A DNA stretch of 64,000 nt from Basidiobolus meristosporus CBS 931.73 (lineage: Eukaryota; Basidiobolomycota; Basidiobolomycetes; Basidiobolales; Basidiobolaceae). The stretch spans positions 1-64,000 of the forward strand of contig MCFE01000058.1 in assembly GCA_002104905.1 (NCBI GenBank), written 5' to 3'. Positions 6,661 to 61,245 of the stretch are shown here, piece by piece (position 1 is the first letter of the stretch; each line of letters opens with the position of its first letter). The notes under the pieces were generated by a model. That model worked only from the letters and a program-made list of their open reading frames with translations, did no database searches and had not been told where the DNA came from. A program made the translations under genes and the position numbers.

Positions 6661-7849
6661 ACACTGGTGGCATATTCTAAGGAGAATGTTGGCCTTAACC
6701 AAACGAGTAAAGCTGTCACAGAATATAAGCTGAAGCGACGATATGACTGTGGTGGATGTGATGGCCAATGAGGAGACTGACTGAATGCTGCTTTGTTCAC
6801 TCTATCTATACTGTGTACTCCTGGTCGGTGAATGCACTGCTCAATCATATTGAATGATGGCTTGTATGCTGAGTGTAGTTAGCATTAATATTATTTAAAC
6901 AAATCTGTAATGTACCTATGGATGTGCTATTACCAATGTCATTGCTTTAGTCACCTTACTCCTGATACCTTTATATTTGTAGTTTATCAATGAATTTGTG
7001 GGATTGCTTATTACGTTACACCAGCCGAAGAGTGGCAGTGACCATTTCCTGATTGTATATCTCTGGTGGTACTTATGTGTTTCTGAGAAAGATTCCTGGA
7101 AGCTGCATTTAAGACAAGCTTGCGAATATTTATGACTTCCAGGCCTGAAGTAATTCTAAAAGTTAACAGATATCTTACAAGTCAAATTCATAGTTCAGCA
7201 ATAAGCTAAGTCAGATCTCGAAGGGTACAAGTATCTTTTAATTACTTCGTTCCTCAGTCGCAGGTACATATGTATATTCCCAATGTAACTGTAGTGTTGT
7301 TAGTATTACACAAAACCACGCCATCGCTTGGAACGGTAGGAAGGGTGGTACGTGTACAGAACTATTTGCCGGGATGGGTGATTTTTATATCATATTTATC
7401 ATATTTATACTATATATATATATATCAAATTTGGGTTGGAGTCACTAAACTGGACCTTGGGAAGTGAGCCAGTATTTGGGAATCATATGCAACATCTGCT
7501 TCCACGTGACCTCGTTGTATAGTGGCGTTGATGGCTCATCTGCTTTAGTCAGAGAATCGAAGTATATTATGTCAATCAATTAAGCACTGCGAAACAATTG
7601 TCTAAGACAAGTACACCATGCTCTTGAATGTAGATGTGCTTTTAGGTTAGATCACTCAACGGGCCATTGAGAAGTGAACCATCATTGTGAAATCTTGTGT
7701 AAGATCAACTTACCCATATCCGCACACGACCTCGAGTTATAGTGAAGACAATTCATCAAGATATGATGCATGGTCATATTGATTAACATTCTGAGTTATT
7801 GAGGAAAATTTGAACACCACTAAACTATTGCTCTAATCTCACCGGACTT
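6661..7849. other. Intergenic, with a diverged direct repeat
   Basis: No gene seen. Segments 7441-7535 and 7650-7748 resemble each other (GTCACTAAAC/ATCACTCAAC, GAAGTGARCCA, CGACCTCG, TATAGTG) and look like old duplicates of one sequence. An AT microsatellite (TATATATATATATATC) lies near 7410. The right end grades into the duplicated block that carries the first cysteine-rich peptide gene. Confidence 0.5.
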
Positions 7850-7941
7850 CATTTCATTCTTTATTGTTTAAGATCAGTAACACCGTGAGCCACTTTGCTA
7901 CTCGGAAACAGTTTGTTTGAGACATCTAGTGCAGTCTGTGT

Positions 7942-8115
7942 CTAGCAGGATCCGTATGAGCAACATTTGTCTCCGCTAGGGCCACAACCATACCACTGAC
8001 AGCATCCACGACCCTCGATAGTGCCTTCGTTGCTTGGGGTGTTATCCACCGGAGATGCCTTGACAGTTGTTAGGACGGCGAGTAGAGAAGTGAGAGCAAT
8101 CAGAGAGACCTTCAT
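7942..8115 (-). CDS. Small secreted cysteine-rich prepropeptide, copy A
   Basis: 57-codon ORF starting at the ATG at 8115. Residues 1-20 are a typical signal peptide (MKVSLIALTSLLAVLTTVKA). Residues 21-36 form an acidic Ser/Thr-containing stretch ending IEGR. Residues 37-57 form a compact module starting GCC, with six cysteines in the pattern CC-x4-C-x6-CC-x4-C, and the stop follows the last Cys directly. Signal peptide, propeptide ending in Arg and disulfide-rich core is the classic layout of a processed secreted peptide. The family is not recognised. Copy B (9177-9350) has an identical 21-residue core. Function could be antimicrobial, signalling, effector or toxin-like, and the sequence does not decide. 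An AATAAAG poly(A) signal lies downstream on the minus strand near 7860. Confidence 0.82.
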   Translation of the reverse strand: MKVSLIALTSLLAVLTTVKASPVDNTPSNEGTIEGRGCCQWYGCGPSGDKCCSYGSC

Positions 8116-8155
8116 AATGGTGAGTTACTTGGTGTTGCTTTATGGGAGAGTGCAC

Positions 8156-8162
8156 TTTTATA
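8156..8162 (-). promoter_or_regulatory. TATA box of cysteine-rich peptide copy A
   Basis: TATAAAAGTGCACTCTCCC on the minus strand, about 40 bp before the ATG at 8115. The same element is kept at copy B (TATAAAAGTGCGCTCTCCC) and is degenerate in the dead copy C. Confidence 0.7.
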
Positions 8163-8230
8163 CTGTTTTCCTGTGGCAGCACCCGAGTGTGTGAAACGGC
8201 ATTCCTACTGAACACTACTGGTGTGACCAT

Positions 8231-8619
8231 CTCTCTCGTACAGGGCTAAATTATGTTCAAGCCCTGGCCTTATATTGACCATACCAACTCCAACAAATCT
8301 TCTGATCCTACCACTCCTTGGTAACAATGGGGCCACTTGGTTATGGCTATCAGCAATTTTTTGTAACATCATCCATATCTCACAAGTGATCCAGCTGAAA
8401 CGAAGAATAATACGAACCGGTCACTTGCACAGAACCATCTTCGGGGAGCATATGTGCAATGGTTGAGCTAAATGGATCAACTGGTTGGTGCTGGAGATCT
8501 AGCGATTGGGATTGTGGGAAAAAGCTAGTGTACATTTCTTGTTATGCAATCAATGGGTCACTACATTCATCTATGTATATTACCTCGATGGGGGATAACT
8601 AGAGCACTGACAGGATTTT
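8231..8619. other. Spacer in the peptide array
   Basis: No gene recognised. The left edge still holds the conserved upstream box shared by copies A, B and C (…TCTCTCGYACAGGGCTA… on the plus strand). Confidence 0.45.
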
Positions 8620-8700
8620 ATCTTGTTTTTTATTGAATAACACCATGAGCCGTTTACTACATAGCCAACGAATCCTCCGATTGTATTACTCCTTGGTATC
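8620..8700 (-). pseudogene. Relic of a peptide-gene 3' region
   Basis: TTTATTGAATAACACCATGA… followed by GCC and TACTACATAG resembles the 3' untranslated segments of copies A, B and C (TTTATTG…AACACCRTGAGCCAC). No coding module is left beside it, so only the tail of a lost copy seems to survive. Confidence 0.4.
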
Positions 8701-9055
8701 AATGACTAATACTTGCTATACTAAAGCAACTCGTAGTATGCCCCCAGCAATCTTTACGTAGCCTCATTAATACTACACAAACCATTTAACCCGATGATCC
8801 AACATTTGGAATGATAGTAGCAGCCGATCCCGCACGCAGAGCCATTTTCTGTGAATACTCATTGGTCCACAGGTTGATGATGGATACGTGTTGTGAAAGG
8901 GATCGCTGAATGTGAAGTATTTTTGTATAACGACAACTCGACTGTACCTTCATGTGACCTTCGTCAAGAAAAGTGGAATGGCTTCATTGATTAGTATTGC
9001 GTCAAGAGCTGGGAACTCTGAGCTATTGCAACTTTAAAGATGAATTGAACACCAA
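8701..9055. other. Spacer in the peptide array
   Basis: No gene seen. The segment from about 8935 resembles the 3' flank of copy A (from about 7700), so the duplicated block extends well beyond the coding sequence. Confidence 0.4.
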
Positions 9056-9176
9056 GGAATCATTGCTTTAATCTCGCTGGACTCCGTCTCGTTCTTTATT
9101 GTTTAAGATCAGTAACACCGTGAGCCACTTTGCTACTTGGAAACAGCTTATTTGATACATCGAGTGCAGCCTGTGC

Positions 9177-9350
9177 CTAGCAGGATCCGTATGAGCAGCA
9201 TTTGTCTCCGCTAGGGCCACAACCATACCACTGACAGCATCCACGAGCCTCAATAGTGTCTTCGTTGCTTAGAGTGACATCTACTGGGGATGCCTTGACA
9301 GTTGCTAGAACGGCGAGTAGAGAAGTGAGAGCAATCAGAGAGGCCTTCAT
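9177..9350 (-). CDS. Small secreted cysteine-rich prepropeptide, copy B
   Basis: 57 codons from the ATG at 9350, collinear with copy A. The signal peptide differs at two residues. The propeptide differs at several, including a dibasic-free end IEAR where copy A has IEGR. The 21-residue cysteine module is identical in sequence. Strong conservation of the core against a drifting propeptide suggests the core is the functional product and cleavage follows the Arg. The surrounding 5' and 3' segments are also duplicated, so this is a segmental duplication of roughly 0.5 kb. A and B lie in the same orientation about 1.2 kb apart. Confidence 0.82.
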   Translation of the reverse strand: MKASLIALTSLLAVLATVKASPVDVTLSNEDTIEARGCCQWYGCGPSGDKCCSYGSC

Positions 9351-9390
9351 AGTGATGAGTTACTTAATGACGCTTCCTGGGAGAGCGCAC

Positions 9391-9397
9391 TTTTATA
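9391..9397 (-). promoter_or_regulatory. TATA box of cysteine-rich peptide copy B
   Basis: TATAAAA on the minus strand, 40 bp upstream of the ATG at 9350, in the same GAGTATAAAAGTGC context as copy A. Confidence 0.7.
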
Positions 9398-9799
9398 CTC
9401 TTCTCTTGTAATTGTACCAGGTAGCATGAATGTGTGAAACGACGTTCTTACTGAGCATTAGCGGTGTCACCAGAACAGCCGGATAGATTCTCTCGCACAG
9501 GGCTATGTTGTGTAAAAGCGTTTCCTGCATCATACCATGCTCTCTGCTATATCATTCATTGTGCATAAACTATTCATCTCGAAGCTTCTTCAAATTAGGA
9601 CTCTGCACAGATCTACTATATAATGCTCCAAATAGCCAGTATTTTGGATTTACGAAATATCTTGTTTACATATTATATAATTAAATCGCTTGAATGTATA
9701 TTATAGTTTATATATCATTCTTTATTAATCAAGATATATAACACCATGAGGCACTTTGTTACATGGAAACAGCATACATGCGACATCCAGCGCAACCTT

Positions 9800-9966
9800 A
9801 GTTAAGCAGTGTCGGTATGAGCAGCATTTGTTTCCGCTAGGGCCACAACCATACCACTGGCGAGCCTTGATAGTGCCTTCGTTGCTTTGGGTATTATCCG
9901 CCGGGGATGCCTTGACAACAGCTAAGACAGCCAGTAGAGTAGTGAGTAAAAACAGAGGGACTTCAT
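9800..9966 (-). pseudogene. Cysteine-rich peptide, copy C, broken
   Basis: Aligns to copies A and B throughout. A 1-bp deletion in the signal-peptide region (near 9945) shifts the frame into an early TAG. The leading Cys-Cys pair of the module is deleted, and the codon where A and B stop now reads through. The TATA box is also degraded (TTAAAAC). The remaining WYGCGPSG and KCC pieces show its origin. It is a decaying paralogue, not a variant with an alternative fold. Confidence 0.8.
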
Positions 9967-10139
9967 GATATTAGCTCAGGAGAGGGCACCTTAAAACTGT
10001 TTGTTTATAATTGTATCTGGTAGTATCTCAGTGTGGGCAACGTCCTCTTACTGAACACCATCATATCAGCTAGATGGATTCTCTTGCACAGAGCTATATT
10101 GAGCGACAATATATATACTAACCCTGAATAAACTTGAGA

Positions 10140-10300
10140 ACTGTCACAATCTCGTCACTTTTTAGTATTTAGGATCAATAACTCCATGAGCTACTTTGCT
10201 ACATAGTATCGAGTACAATCTAAGCCTTTCTAGGCCTGTATGAGTAGCACCCACAGCCAGAAGCCCCAAGAATATCTGGAGTTGTGTTATTAGAAGAAAT
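10140..10300 (-). pseudogene. Cysteine-rich peptide, copy D, remnant
   Basis: On the minus strand, AATAACACAACTCC…, then SGCGCYSY-like codons and a 3' tail with GTAGCAAAGTAGCTCATGGAG match the propeptide, the end of the module and the 3' region of A-C. The middle is missing and no start codon or signal peptide remains. It is the oldest-looking copy and lies next to the LPMO gene. Confidence 0.55.
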
Positions 10301-13465: not shown

Positions 13466-14025
13466 GCTCAACTACATGGTTATTATTTATCTACCCCTAT
13501 TCTTCTTGCTTACTAAATACTGTATTCAGCTAACATCAATATTTGGCATACTTCCATCTGTGGCTAATATCTCAACATTAAGGTAATTCCCATACCACCC
13601 ATTTTCTCTAGCCTTGGTGCACAAAACTCTGCTCATTTTGAGGTGTTGTCAATCATACCTTTGTGATCGAGCTTTAGGGTCCCTTTTTCTTAATCCACTG
13701 ATTGCTTAGCAGATGGGCTACCATACTTGGGCAATTAGGAACCAGTTAATAGACTCAACTACTCACTTTATTATGCATCTTAAACTGCCCTAGAGTCATA
13801 TAACATATTTGATAAACTTTCGCACTCTGCATAGCTGTACTCAAGTCCATTGACCAAATACTGGTAATTCCTTGCTGAAGTCCACGTGTGTAGCAATGAT
13901 TACTACAGAAACATCGAAGAATGGGCACTCTACTCAAGCATCAATTTATTAAAGTGCGAGTGGGACTCCCTGATGGGTATATAAAGGTGACTAAAAGTAA
14001 CTAGTTGTACGTATAAATCAGAAAT
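13466..14025. promoter_or_regulatory. Intergenic and promoter of the secreted protein at 14026
   Basis: A clear TATA box, TATATAAA, lies at 13978-13985, about 45 bp before the ATG. Nothing else was recognised. Confidence 0.6.
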
Positions 14026-14463
14026 ATGAGAGCATTCCTCACACTCTTGTTACTTACCATAGTCTCTACTACCTTTGCGGCTCGGCTAGGCAAATGCCAA
14101 GGGTGGTCAGTAGCACCTCTTACTCATTCTGTTGGTGGCAAGTCAACATTTAGAGCTAACGATGAAGTCACGCTCAAGTGGAACGTGGGTATTTCACAAG
14201 TGAAATACATCCGTGAAGTAACCTTGAGCAGCGCCAAATCCAACCAACCTCTTCATACGCAGCTTCGCAGCTATCCCGGAATTAAAGCCTCGAATGGGAA
14301 AATTACTTTTAAACTCTCTGTACCTCTTTGTCTTCAAAGAGAGGGTGAATACTTCCTTAACGTGGTCGCCAGCACTCCCGGCAAGGAAGGTGACTGCTTG
14401 GCAACTACTCCCAGCTTCAGATTGACCCCGGAACCTAACAAGGATTATTCAGTATGTAAATGA
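14026..14463 (+). CDS. Small secreted protein, Ig-like, function unknown
   Basis: 145 residues with an 18-residue signal peptide (MRAFLTLLLLTIVSTTFA). The mature part has four cysteines and alternating hydrophobic strands (EVTLKWNVG, REVTLSSA, GKITFKLSVPLC, EYFLNVVAS), which suggests a small beta-sandwich. It weakly recalls the N-terminal Ig-like domain of Kre9/KNH and Ser/Thr-rich GPI-anchored wall proteins, but no GPI signal or Ser/Thr-rich tail follows. A strong TATA box precedes it and no intron is needed. It lies in the same secreted-product neighbourhood as the peptide array and the LPMO. The assignment beyond secreted protein is uncertain. Confidence 0.65.
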   Translation: MRAFLTLLLLTIVSTTFAARLGKCQGWSVAPLTHSVGGKSTFRANDEVTLKWNVGISQVKYIREVTLSSAKSNQPLHTQLRSYPGIKASNGKITFKLSVPLCLQREGEYFLNVVASTPGKEGDCLATTPSFRLTPEPNKDYSVCK

Positions 14464-58592: not shown

Positions 58593-61245
58593 TTAAGATC
58601 AGCTAATTTCTGGAGTAAAAATTGATCCCCCAGCTAATTTGGAGCACTGTGAAGCCTGCATATATGGGAAACAAGCCAGACAACTGTTCAAGAGCTCTGG
58701 GTTGATCAAAACTAAGAAAAAATTAGATCTAATTCACTCAGATCTGTGTGGACCTATGCAAAATTTTTCCTTAGGTGGGATAAAGTATTTAATCACCATT
58801 ATTGATGATTATACAAGATACACATGGGTCTACTTCATGGAGAGAAAGGAAGAAGCTCTGTCTAAGCTCAGGGAATTTAATGTTATGATGGAGAGAGAAA
58901 CTGGTGAAAAAATTAAGAAAATATGCTCTGACAATTGTGGAGAATATACCTCCAAACTCTTCATCCACTTCTGCAAAATTCATGGGATAAAGCAAGAGAC
59001 TACTGTACCATACTCCCCACAGCAGAATGGAGTAGCAGAAAGTGCTAACAGATCAATAATTGATATGGCAAGATCTATGCTCCATGATCACAAATTATCC
59101 TATTGTTTTTGGGCAGAATCAGTTGCCACTGCTATATATCTTAAGAATAGGAGTTATAACAGAATATTTTATGATTCTACTCCATTTGAAGCATGGCATG
59201 GATACAGACCAAGTGCAGAACATCTAAGAATATTAGGGTGTACAGCATATGCCAAGAAACTGCCAAGAAATCAGTCAAAATTTGAGCCAAAAAGTGTAAA
59301 ATGCATACTTTTGGGCTACTGCAATGAGAGTAAAGCATGCAGACTCTACAATACCAAAGCAAAGAAGCTAATCAAGTCTAGGGATGTGTTGTTTGATGAA
59401 AATTTAAAATTTCACAAAAAATGACACCAGATGTTGACAAAAATCTGATCTCAAGTCCACCAATTGTCAGGATTGAATCACAGCAATACAATGAAAGTTT
59501 TTTCACTCCAGAGGACTCTACAACCATGGTTCTGCCAGAATCAGTGCCCAGGAACATCCCAGAAGTGATCATTCCAGTATCAAATGCTTGGAGATCCAAT
59601 CAAACAAGAAATAGCCCAAATTACTATATCTATGAGGGTACAAACTTAGCCTATGCCTATTCAGTCCATATTGATGAGCCCCAGACTGTAAAAGAGGCCC
59701 TAAATATCCCTCAGACAAAATTTTAGAGATCTGCAATGACTGAGGAATATCAGGCCCTGATGGAAAATCAGACTTGGGACTTAGTCAAATTACCAATCAA
59801 CCAAAAATCAATTGGACGCAGATAGGTCTTCAAGACAAAATATAAGGCTGATGGTACAATTGAAAGATACAAAGCAAGACTTGTGGTCAAAGGATACTCT
59901 CAAACAAAAGGACCTGACTATACTGAGACCTTTGCACTAGTAGCCATGCTTAATTCCATTAGATCAATATTGGCTATTGCAGCCAAATATAAGTTTTTAA
60001 TTCATCAAATGGATGTAAAAACTGCATTTTTGAATGGAGAACTTGATGAGGATGTGTATATGGGTCAGCCTGATGGGTTTGCTGACCATGATAACCCCCA
60101 TTTGGTCTGCAAGCTTAAAAAGTCACTATATGGTCTCAAACAATCACCAAGAGCCTAGAATTGCAAGATAGATTCTTATTTGGAATCTTTGAGTTTCAAA
60201 AGGAGTAATGCTGACTAGAGTATATACTATAAGCCAGATAGAGCAAATCCAGTTCTATTAGCTGTATATGTAGATGATCTTATTATAGCTGCCAATAACC
60301 TAGCAACATTGAAAGAGACTAAATACAGCCTATCTAAAGATTTCAAGATGTCCAATCTAGGACAACTTAGTTACTACTTAGGGATTAAGTTCTCCATAGA
60401 CAGAAGTACCCAGACTATTACCCTAAGCCAATCCAAGTATATTCAAGATATACTAAAGAAGTACCAAATGGAAGACTGTAAAATGGCAGCTACTCCATTG
60501 GAGACAAACCTTAACTTGGTCAGAACTCAACCAAATCAAGACAGCTTGTTGCCATCTGAAAGCCCTGACTTGCATTATCAATCTATGGCAGCAGTCTGAT
60601 GTATATCATACTTGGAACATGTCAAGATATCTTATATTCAGTGGGAGTTGTCAGCCAACATAATCAGAATTTTGGATCTGACCACATTGCAGCAGTTAAG
60701 CAGATTTTTAGATACCTAAAAGGAACTGCTGATATCTGCTTAAGATACACTTATAAGGTCTCCAAACAGGATCTTGTGGGATACTCTGATGCCAATTGGG
60801 GACAAAACTTGGAAGACAGAAGATCCACCACAGGATACACCTTTCTTTACTGTAAAGGAGCAATTTCATGGAACTCAAGGATGCAACCAACCTTAGCACT
60901 TTCTACCACAGAGGCAGAGTACATGGCAGCCTGTGAAGCTACAAGAGAAGTAATGTGGTTAAGAAAGCTTTTCACAGATTTAGGCCTATGTCAATAATTA
61001 CCTGTTACTTTATTTCAAGATAATCAAGGATATATACAATTAGGTAGATATCCAACTTTTCATGCTAGAACCAAGCACATAGCTATCTGTCATCATTTCA
61101 TACATGAAACTATAGAGAATAGCCTAGTTAGCTTAGTTTACTGTCCTACAGATGAAATGATTGCAGACATACTTACTAAACCATCAGCTAGAGACAAGTT
61201 TGAATATCTTAGGTCAAAATTAGGACTAGTCAGTATGAACATTTA
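58593..61245 (+). mobile_element. Ty1/copia pol region (integrase, reverse transcriptase, RNase H), inactive
   Basis: The order integrase before RT defines copia. GAG-pre-integrase zinc end: EHCEACIYGK. Integrase core: LIHSDLCGPM, ITIIDDYTRYTWVYFM, SDNCGEY (Asn where Gly/Asp-type residues are usual), YSPQQNGVAE. RT: KGYSQTKGPDYTETFA, HQMDVKTAFLNGEL, VYVDDLIIA. RNase H: GYSDANWGQNLEDRRSTTGY, TTEAEYMA, ARTKHIAICHHF. The frame shifts near 59420 and 60598. TAG codons interrupt at 59724, 59823, 60156 and 60216, and a TAA at about 60995. Gag and protease are missing here. It cannot encode a working polyprotein. Confidence 0.92.

Follow-up and report, generated by a model that had tools for sequence, protein, structure and literature searches.

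Results

The window analysed here is the whole 64,000-nucleotide stretch that opens contig MCFE01000058.1 of Basidiobolus meristosporus CBS 931.73 (C846:1-64000; the contig has 195,199 bases and the assembly 89.0 Mb). On its minus strand lie two small genes, A1 and A2, each of which encodes in one uninterrupted frame a 57-residue protein with a signal-peptide-like N-terminus, an acidic pro-segment and a cysteine-rich core of the pattern CC-x4-C-x6-CC-x4-C (Table 1). A first reading, made from the sequence only, had described both open reading frames (ORFs) as intact, with an identical core and with differing signal and propeptide residues. This is indeed what we find: the last 21 residues of A1 are those of A2 (GCCQWYGCGPSGDKCCSYGSC), the core-coding stretches differ by a single silent change, and the amino-acid changes fall exclusively outside the core. 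A third copy, A3, is a broken relic, and a fourth stretch resembles nothing of the genes but their 3' flank; no core remnant of significance was found at the latter.

Table 1. Features of the window around the peptide genes (positions in the window).
Feature	Position	Strand	Basis
A1, intact gene for a 57-residue precursor	7942-8115	-	ORF list; genome-search self match, E 7.6e-35
A1 residues 1-20, signal-peptide-like (MK, hydrophobic stretch, VKA)	8056-8115	-	Sequence; Ala20 invariant in 13/13
A1 residues 21-36, pro-segment (SPV...EGR), presumed to be processed	8008-8055	-	Sequence; Pro22, Val23, Glu34 invariant in 13/13
A1 residues 37-57, core CC-x4-C-x6-CC-x4-C	7945-8007	-	Sequence
A1 TATAAA	8157-8162	-	47 nt upstream of ATG
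A1 AATAAA	7860-7865	-	77 nt past stop
A2, intact gene for a 57-residue precursor, core identical to A1	9177-9350	-	ORF list; genome search
A2 residues 37-57, core	9180-9242	-	Sequence
A2 TATAAA	9392-9397	-	47 nt upstream of ATG
A2 AATAAA	9095-9100	-	77 nt past stop
A3, broken relic copy	9806-9967	-	ATG out of frame with core; first GCC of core absent
Fourth copy, 3'-flank relic	10155-10202	-	48 nt, 81% to A1 3' flank
LPMO-like secreted-looking protein, 302 residues	10415-11323	-	Pfam matches under the cut-offs: AA9 (E 6.1e-4), LPMO_10 (E 0.0038)

Searching the genome with the A1 protein gave 20 matches, 18 of which are credible (the query included; six contigs; E 7.6e-35 to 1.7e-4). This is a lower bound on the copy number because the search scores the best candidates only. 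The two remaining matches, on C64 and C768 (E 1.78 each), were dropped as chance. The two ORFs had been taken for a tandem family; they do stand in tandem, but the family is far larger, dispersed and split into three subgroups. Ten of the 18 copies are intact: five in subgroup A (A1 and A2 together with the copies at 167498, 168747 and 170144 of the same contig), three in subgroup B (C808 46742; C459 108500 and 110399) and two in subgroup C (C366 8658-8822; C566 74801). The loops differ between the subgroups, and a cysteine/glycine scaffold is common to them. The copy on C418 (about 26.16-26.30 kb) keeps an open frame, but the loss of five residues has taken the third cysteine out of its core, in which five cysteines are left. 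The window array and a second array 160 kb away on the same contig are inverted relatives that share 81% identity along 1,962 bases, a stretch that takes in intergenic DNA, and we therefore conclude that the family probably spread by segmental and tandem duplication, decaying along the way.

Gene signals accompany the frames. In all ten intact copies a TATA box (TATAAA or TATATA) starts 39-49 nt ahead of the ATG (expected 0.013 per 20 nt), and each copy has AATAAA no more than 110 nt past its stop codon (expected 0.06 per 110 nt, each). These counts serve as support and not as an independent test, because the copies are related. That the ORFs are no product of chance follows from the 18 matching places in the genome and from the relatives found in a second species.

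We aligned 13 proteins from B. meristosporus and Basidiobolus ranarum. Invariant in all of them are M1, K2, S4, A20, P22, V23, E34, the six core cysteines, G43, G45 and G48; the core follows the scaffold CC-x-x-[WY]-G-C-G-[PS]-x-G-x-[KR]-CC-x4-C, in which the aromatic residue of the first loop (W or Y) is conserved. The precursors span 54-57 uninterrupted codons in B. meristosporus and 62 residues in B. ranarum. The proposed signal peptide agrees with what we see by inspection, namely a hydrophobic stretch and Ala20 in 13/13. Signal cleavage obeys a -3/-1 rule, on the basis of which we predict the cut after Ala20. The acidic propeptide had been described as ending in Arg, which is true for ten of the 13 proteins, while the three of subgroup B have Leu directly ahead of the core. 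Likewise, the core ends at the stop codon in the window pair, but it is followed by LP in subgroup B and by N in the protein P0006. Lys-Arg occurs in none of the 13. With six cysteines in 21 residues (29%), the A1 core has a calculated monoisotopic mass of 2156.66 if three disulfides form; the A core has zero net charge, and the other cores have 0 to +1 (by eye).

The core is also the segment in which amino-acid change is lowest within subgroups. We compared replacement with silent differences (proportions of nonsynonymous and synonymous differences, pN and pS) in the signal, pro and core segments. For subgroup A (five copies, ten pairs) pN/pS is 0.309, 0.367 and 0.088, respectively, with a pS of 0.232, 0.306 and 0.267. 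The corresponding pN/pS values are 0.500, 0.149 and 0.112 in subgroup B (three pairs) and 0.248, 0.358 and 0.133 in subgroup C (one pair). The subgroup-A core is identical in four of the five intact copies, and the fifth differs at two residues; amino-acid-variable codons number 2/21 in the core and 14/36 elsewhere (Fisher p 0.03). Because silent divergence is similar across the segments and core replacements are few, the constancy of the subgroup-A core points to constraint rather than conversion. The cysteine scaffold is thus fixed, the core is near-constant inside subgroups, and the loops change between them.

The relatives returned from protein collections are confined to Basidiobolus, as had been predicted. 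When some 5.8 billion proteins were searched with one sequence, there were two candidates, and both were returned: the window's own protein (A1, present as the unnamed entry P0001) and one from B. meristosporus. A family profile returned five of 483 candidates, among them two B. ranarum proteins (E 5.0e-13 and 2.9e-12) that the profile did not contain. Once these two were added, six of 1705 candidates came back, namely the window's own protein, two B. meristosporus entries (K493DRAFT_312117 and K493DRAFT_17464) and three from B. ranarum (K7432_011043, K7432_013097 and K7432_017684, same build); the third B. ranarum relative scored E 2.1e-18 with the profile already holding the first two. The entry P0002, named hypothetical protein K493DRAFT_312117 of B. 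meristosporus CBS 931.73, has the same sequence as the copy at 168747. None of the three protein searches returned an organism other than Basidiobolus, although distant relatives may be missed because such a search relies on shared five-residue words. The collection apparently lacks about half of the ten intact genes, since subgroup B, A6 and C3 were in the profile, yet entries for these five genes were not returned.

A contig scan for prokaryotic relatives gave 85 pattern stretches and seven tblastn passes, which we rejected as chance; none of the seven has the second half of the core, and the frames in which they lie, 116 or 151 codons long, are otherwise unlike the family (by eye). In the viral contigs scanned, 13 pattern stretches contained no relatives. 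Our literature search on Basidiobolus and cysteine-rich peptides found no paper, most subscription papers lying outside its reach, so that absence from print is not shown. Among the papers listed on B. ranarum and secreted peptides (10 of 11), no title or abstract opening names such a family, and 12 of the 13 passages of a paper on Basidiobolus secondary metabolism (PMC7466969) that mention the terms searched contain no such peptide.

The reading of the peptides as a possible new family, with a spacing that could not be matched to a named fungal one, is supported by the family searches, none of which gave a significant match. Pfam has no match for the two window proteins and nothing significant for ten members; two families appear, with a single member matching each (E 0.086 and 0.09), and no toxin family is among them. 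PF00187 (CBM18) is absent from the Pfam matches of any of these ten at E up to 10, with a tool that drops most matches above about 0.1. NCBIfam gave one insignificant match for 12 members (E 0.17), and the PDB sequences only insignificant ones (spider toxins, laforin and a designed protein, the last aligned at E 0.055 to the signal and pro part). The cysteine order CC-C-CC-C is matched to no named family in these searches. Two AlphaFold models (six and seven sequences) reach a mean predicted local distance difference test score of 55.4 and 51.4. We do not assign a fold, because the models are unreliable and contradict each other.

Upstream of the peptide genes and on the same strand lies the LPMO-like (lytic polysaccharide monooxygenase-like) gene of Table 1. 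Its frame is uninterrupted; by eye, a His follows what looks like a signal peptide, and the C-terminal part is rich in cysteines. An LPMO-like relative is found 3.3 kb from the C418 peptide copy, with a GH18 chitinase in between, and the C566 copy has an LPMO-like fragment at a distance of 2.6 kb; the stretches examined around the right-hand C846, C808, C459 and C366 copies hold no LPMO-like match. As C418 and C566 are mutual duplicates, this amounts to at most two independent cases. The genome has 98 stretches with LPMO-like matches, some to the C-terminal part only, and 39 GH18 matches, and GH18-LPMO neighbours occur on C869 and C976 as well, contigs for which the genome search lists no peptide match. 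The linkage may hence be due to chance, since both kinds of gene are abundant and are neighbours where no peptide is listed, and we regard this neighbourhood as a weak functional clue, its link to the peptides being unproven. At L014 4078-5475 and L034 (C418 27577-30542), a GH18 chitinase with CBM5/12 sits beside an LPMO-like gene. Frames of copia-type integrase-like and LINE-type reverse-transcriptase-like fragments (by eye) crowd several peptide loci, in the window at about 58597-59424 and in several flanks. For a short secreted-looking ORF at 14017-14460 of the window, C808 holds a diverged counterpart (49% over 55 residues).

Discussion

We read these genes, with good confidence, as a family of small secreted cysteine-rich precursor peptides, so far known from Basidiobolus only. 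The idea of a secreted precursor peptide stands on the signal-like N-termini and on core cysteines that are invariant in 13/13; what is not supported is release at Arg as a general rule. We infer that the compact gene, with its TATA box, uninterrupted frame and poly(A) signal, is transcribed into the message for the precursor. The signal peptide would be removed between A and (S/N/T)P and the acidic pro-segment cut off directly ahead of the core. An Arg-specific protease would make this second cut in B. ranarum and in subgroups A and C, and a different protease would make it in subgroup B. The remaining core, some 21 residues long, may then close into a compact peptide with three disulfides, and the released, stable product would bind a target, possibly for use against competing microbes or animals that share the gut or the litter.

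Several observations weigh against parts of this picture. In subgroup B (3/13) the segment that separates the signal-like part from the core contains no basic residue, and release at Arg is for this reason not supported as a general rule. The AlphaFold cores disagree: one has two strands, and in the other a helix runs from the last part of the pro-segment into the core. When all 45 pairs among the ten intact copies are taken together, the core pN/pS of 0.283 is near that of the rest (0.365 and 0.348), and replacement-variable to silent-variable codons, 2:6 in the core versus 14:16 in the rest, show no significant difference (Fisher p 0.43). Seven of the 18 copies, the third window copy among them, are broken (no intact start, frame or cysteine), and beyond these the C418 copy has lost a cysteine. 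Finally, the assignment to antagonism is made by analogy only.

As to the role, a released, disulfide-locked and target-binding peptide that acts in antagonism or host interaction is the most probable one in our tentative view, held at somewhat below even confidence and argued from analogy. The near-neutral charge of the core favours binding of a specific target over membrane breaking. B. meristosporus is a fungus associated with the vertebrate gut, and we know of few small secreted peptides that have been described from early-diverging fungi. More tentative still is the thought that the 21-residue, three-disulfide CC-x4-C-x6-CC-x4-C peptides could form a disulfide-dense class with a fold of its own, which would have arisen in Basidiobolus, acquired different loops in three or more subgroups and gained specific activity on animals or microbes of vertebrate gut and leaf litter. 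The peptide is small enough for synthesis, which makes its structure and activity directly testable. The family is also an example of how a peptide gene family duplicates and decays in a vertebrate-gut fungus while its core stays near-constant among recent copies.

Among the alternatives, a reduced inhibitor-cystine-knot (knottin) fold, a type whose disulfides pair I-IV, II-V and III-VI through a ring, convergent with spider theraphotoxins and with the sixth cysteine moved beside the first, survives best, though we find it unlikely. Searched against PDB sequences with E up to 10, the core gives 13 matches, of which 12 are spider toxins if the two labelled only Hs1a and Hd1a are counted, which we take to be theraphotoxins. 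The E-values of these toxins, 0.33 to 5.1, are not significant, and the top match is laforin, an unrelated enzyme. Theraphotoxin-type knottins (PDB 1tyk, 1lu8, 2mt7) have the spacing C-x6-CC-x4-C in common with the peptides, with weak sequence alignments, but they are longer. Moreover, the knottin order is C-C-CC-C-C, as in the spider pattern CX6CX6CCX4CX6C given in PMC6409621, whereas all 13 Basidiobolus proteins have CC-C-CC-C; the papers with matching spacing strings hold the spider or ant order C-C-CC-C-C. The silence of Pfam on toxin families and the lack of a confident AlphaFold model speak against this fold as well.

That the peptides are very short chitin binders, either descended from a hevein/CBM18 domain or functionally like one, and act on the cell wall or together with the chitin-active enzymes encoded nearby, appears improbable to us. 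The stretch CC-x-x-[YW]-G-C-G of the peptides resembles the CC-x-x-[YW]-G-x-C-G-like part of hevein/CBM18 (PF00187), whose core CCSx[YW]GxCG is present in 13 of 14 domains taken from 85 genome matches. In addition, hhalign aligns the family with the CBM18 profile at a probability of 54% (nominal E 1.3e-4), and the family has LPMO-like genes close by in the window, on C418 and on C566, with the GH18 chitinase on C418. The hhalign score of 18.5 falls, however, inside the range of 100 shuffles of the columns with the cysteines left in place (mean 12.2, standard deviation 3.5, maximum 24.5), so that the likeness does not clearly go beyond cysteine spacing. The spacing itself is CC-x5-C-x6-C in CBM18 and CC-x4-C-x6-CC here; the peptides are without the N-terminal cysteines of hevein/CBM18 and have an extra CC. 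The missing Pfam match and the abundance of both enzyme types, also apart from listed peptides, count further against it.

To a similarly low degree we credit a fungal signalling or pheromone-like peptide in place of an antagonist. The precursor route and the constancy of the core among recent duplicates would suit it, as would the Glu-Ala and X-Pro steps in the pro-segment, which are reminiscent of dipeptidyl trimming, but each precursor holds a single core with six cysteines and no Lys-Arg site, and three divergent subgroups coexist in one genome. A cysteine-rich metal-binding peptide, suggested by the 29% cysteine content, is very improbable in view of the signal-like N-terminus and the conserved W or Y in the first loop.

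Having preferred a secreted cysteine-rich precursor peptide, we compare it with systems of similar design. Fungal Kex2-processed secreted peptides are likewise built from a signal, a pro-segment and a compact cysteine-rich core. The Basidiobolus family differs from these in its near-neutral core and in having a single Arg or none in place of Lys-Arg, and a basic residue thus does not precede the core in every member. Conotoxin frameworks I-VII are not known to match CC-C-CC-C. Frameworks VIII-XXXIII in the table of PMC8066717 do not include a six-cysteine CC-C-CC-C; the order does occur inside longer frameworks, for example XVII and XX. The alpha-D conotoxins are of framework XX (C-CC-C-CC-C-C-C-C), come from animal venom and have 49 residues and ten cysteines; according to PMC3397437 they contain CC-x4-C-xn-CC-x4-C, with a middle loop of three residues compared with six in Basidiobolus.

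The beta-ginkgotides are six-cysteine peptides of gymnosperms with 18-20 mature residues (PMC5522442). They are reported there as gymnosperm-specific and with a C-terminal tail. Section 10 of PMC5522442 holds no six-cysteine CC-C-CC-C family. Its introduction once gives CC-C-CC-C, contrary to its abstract, section 10 and conclusion, which have C-CC-C-CC, the mirror image of the Basidiobolus order CC-C-CC-C. Common to both groups of peptides are six cysteines, two CC pairs, three loops and a precursor with signal peptide and propeptide (PMC5522442).

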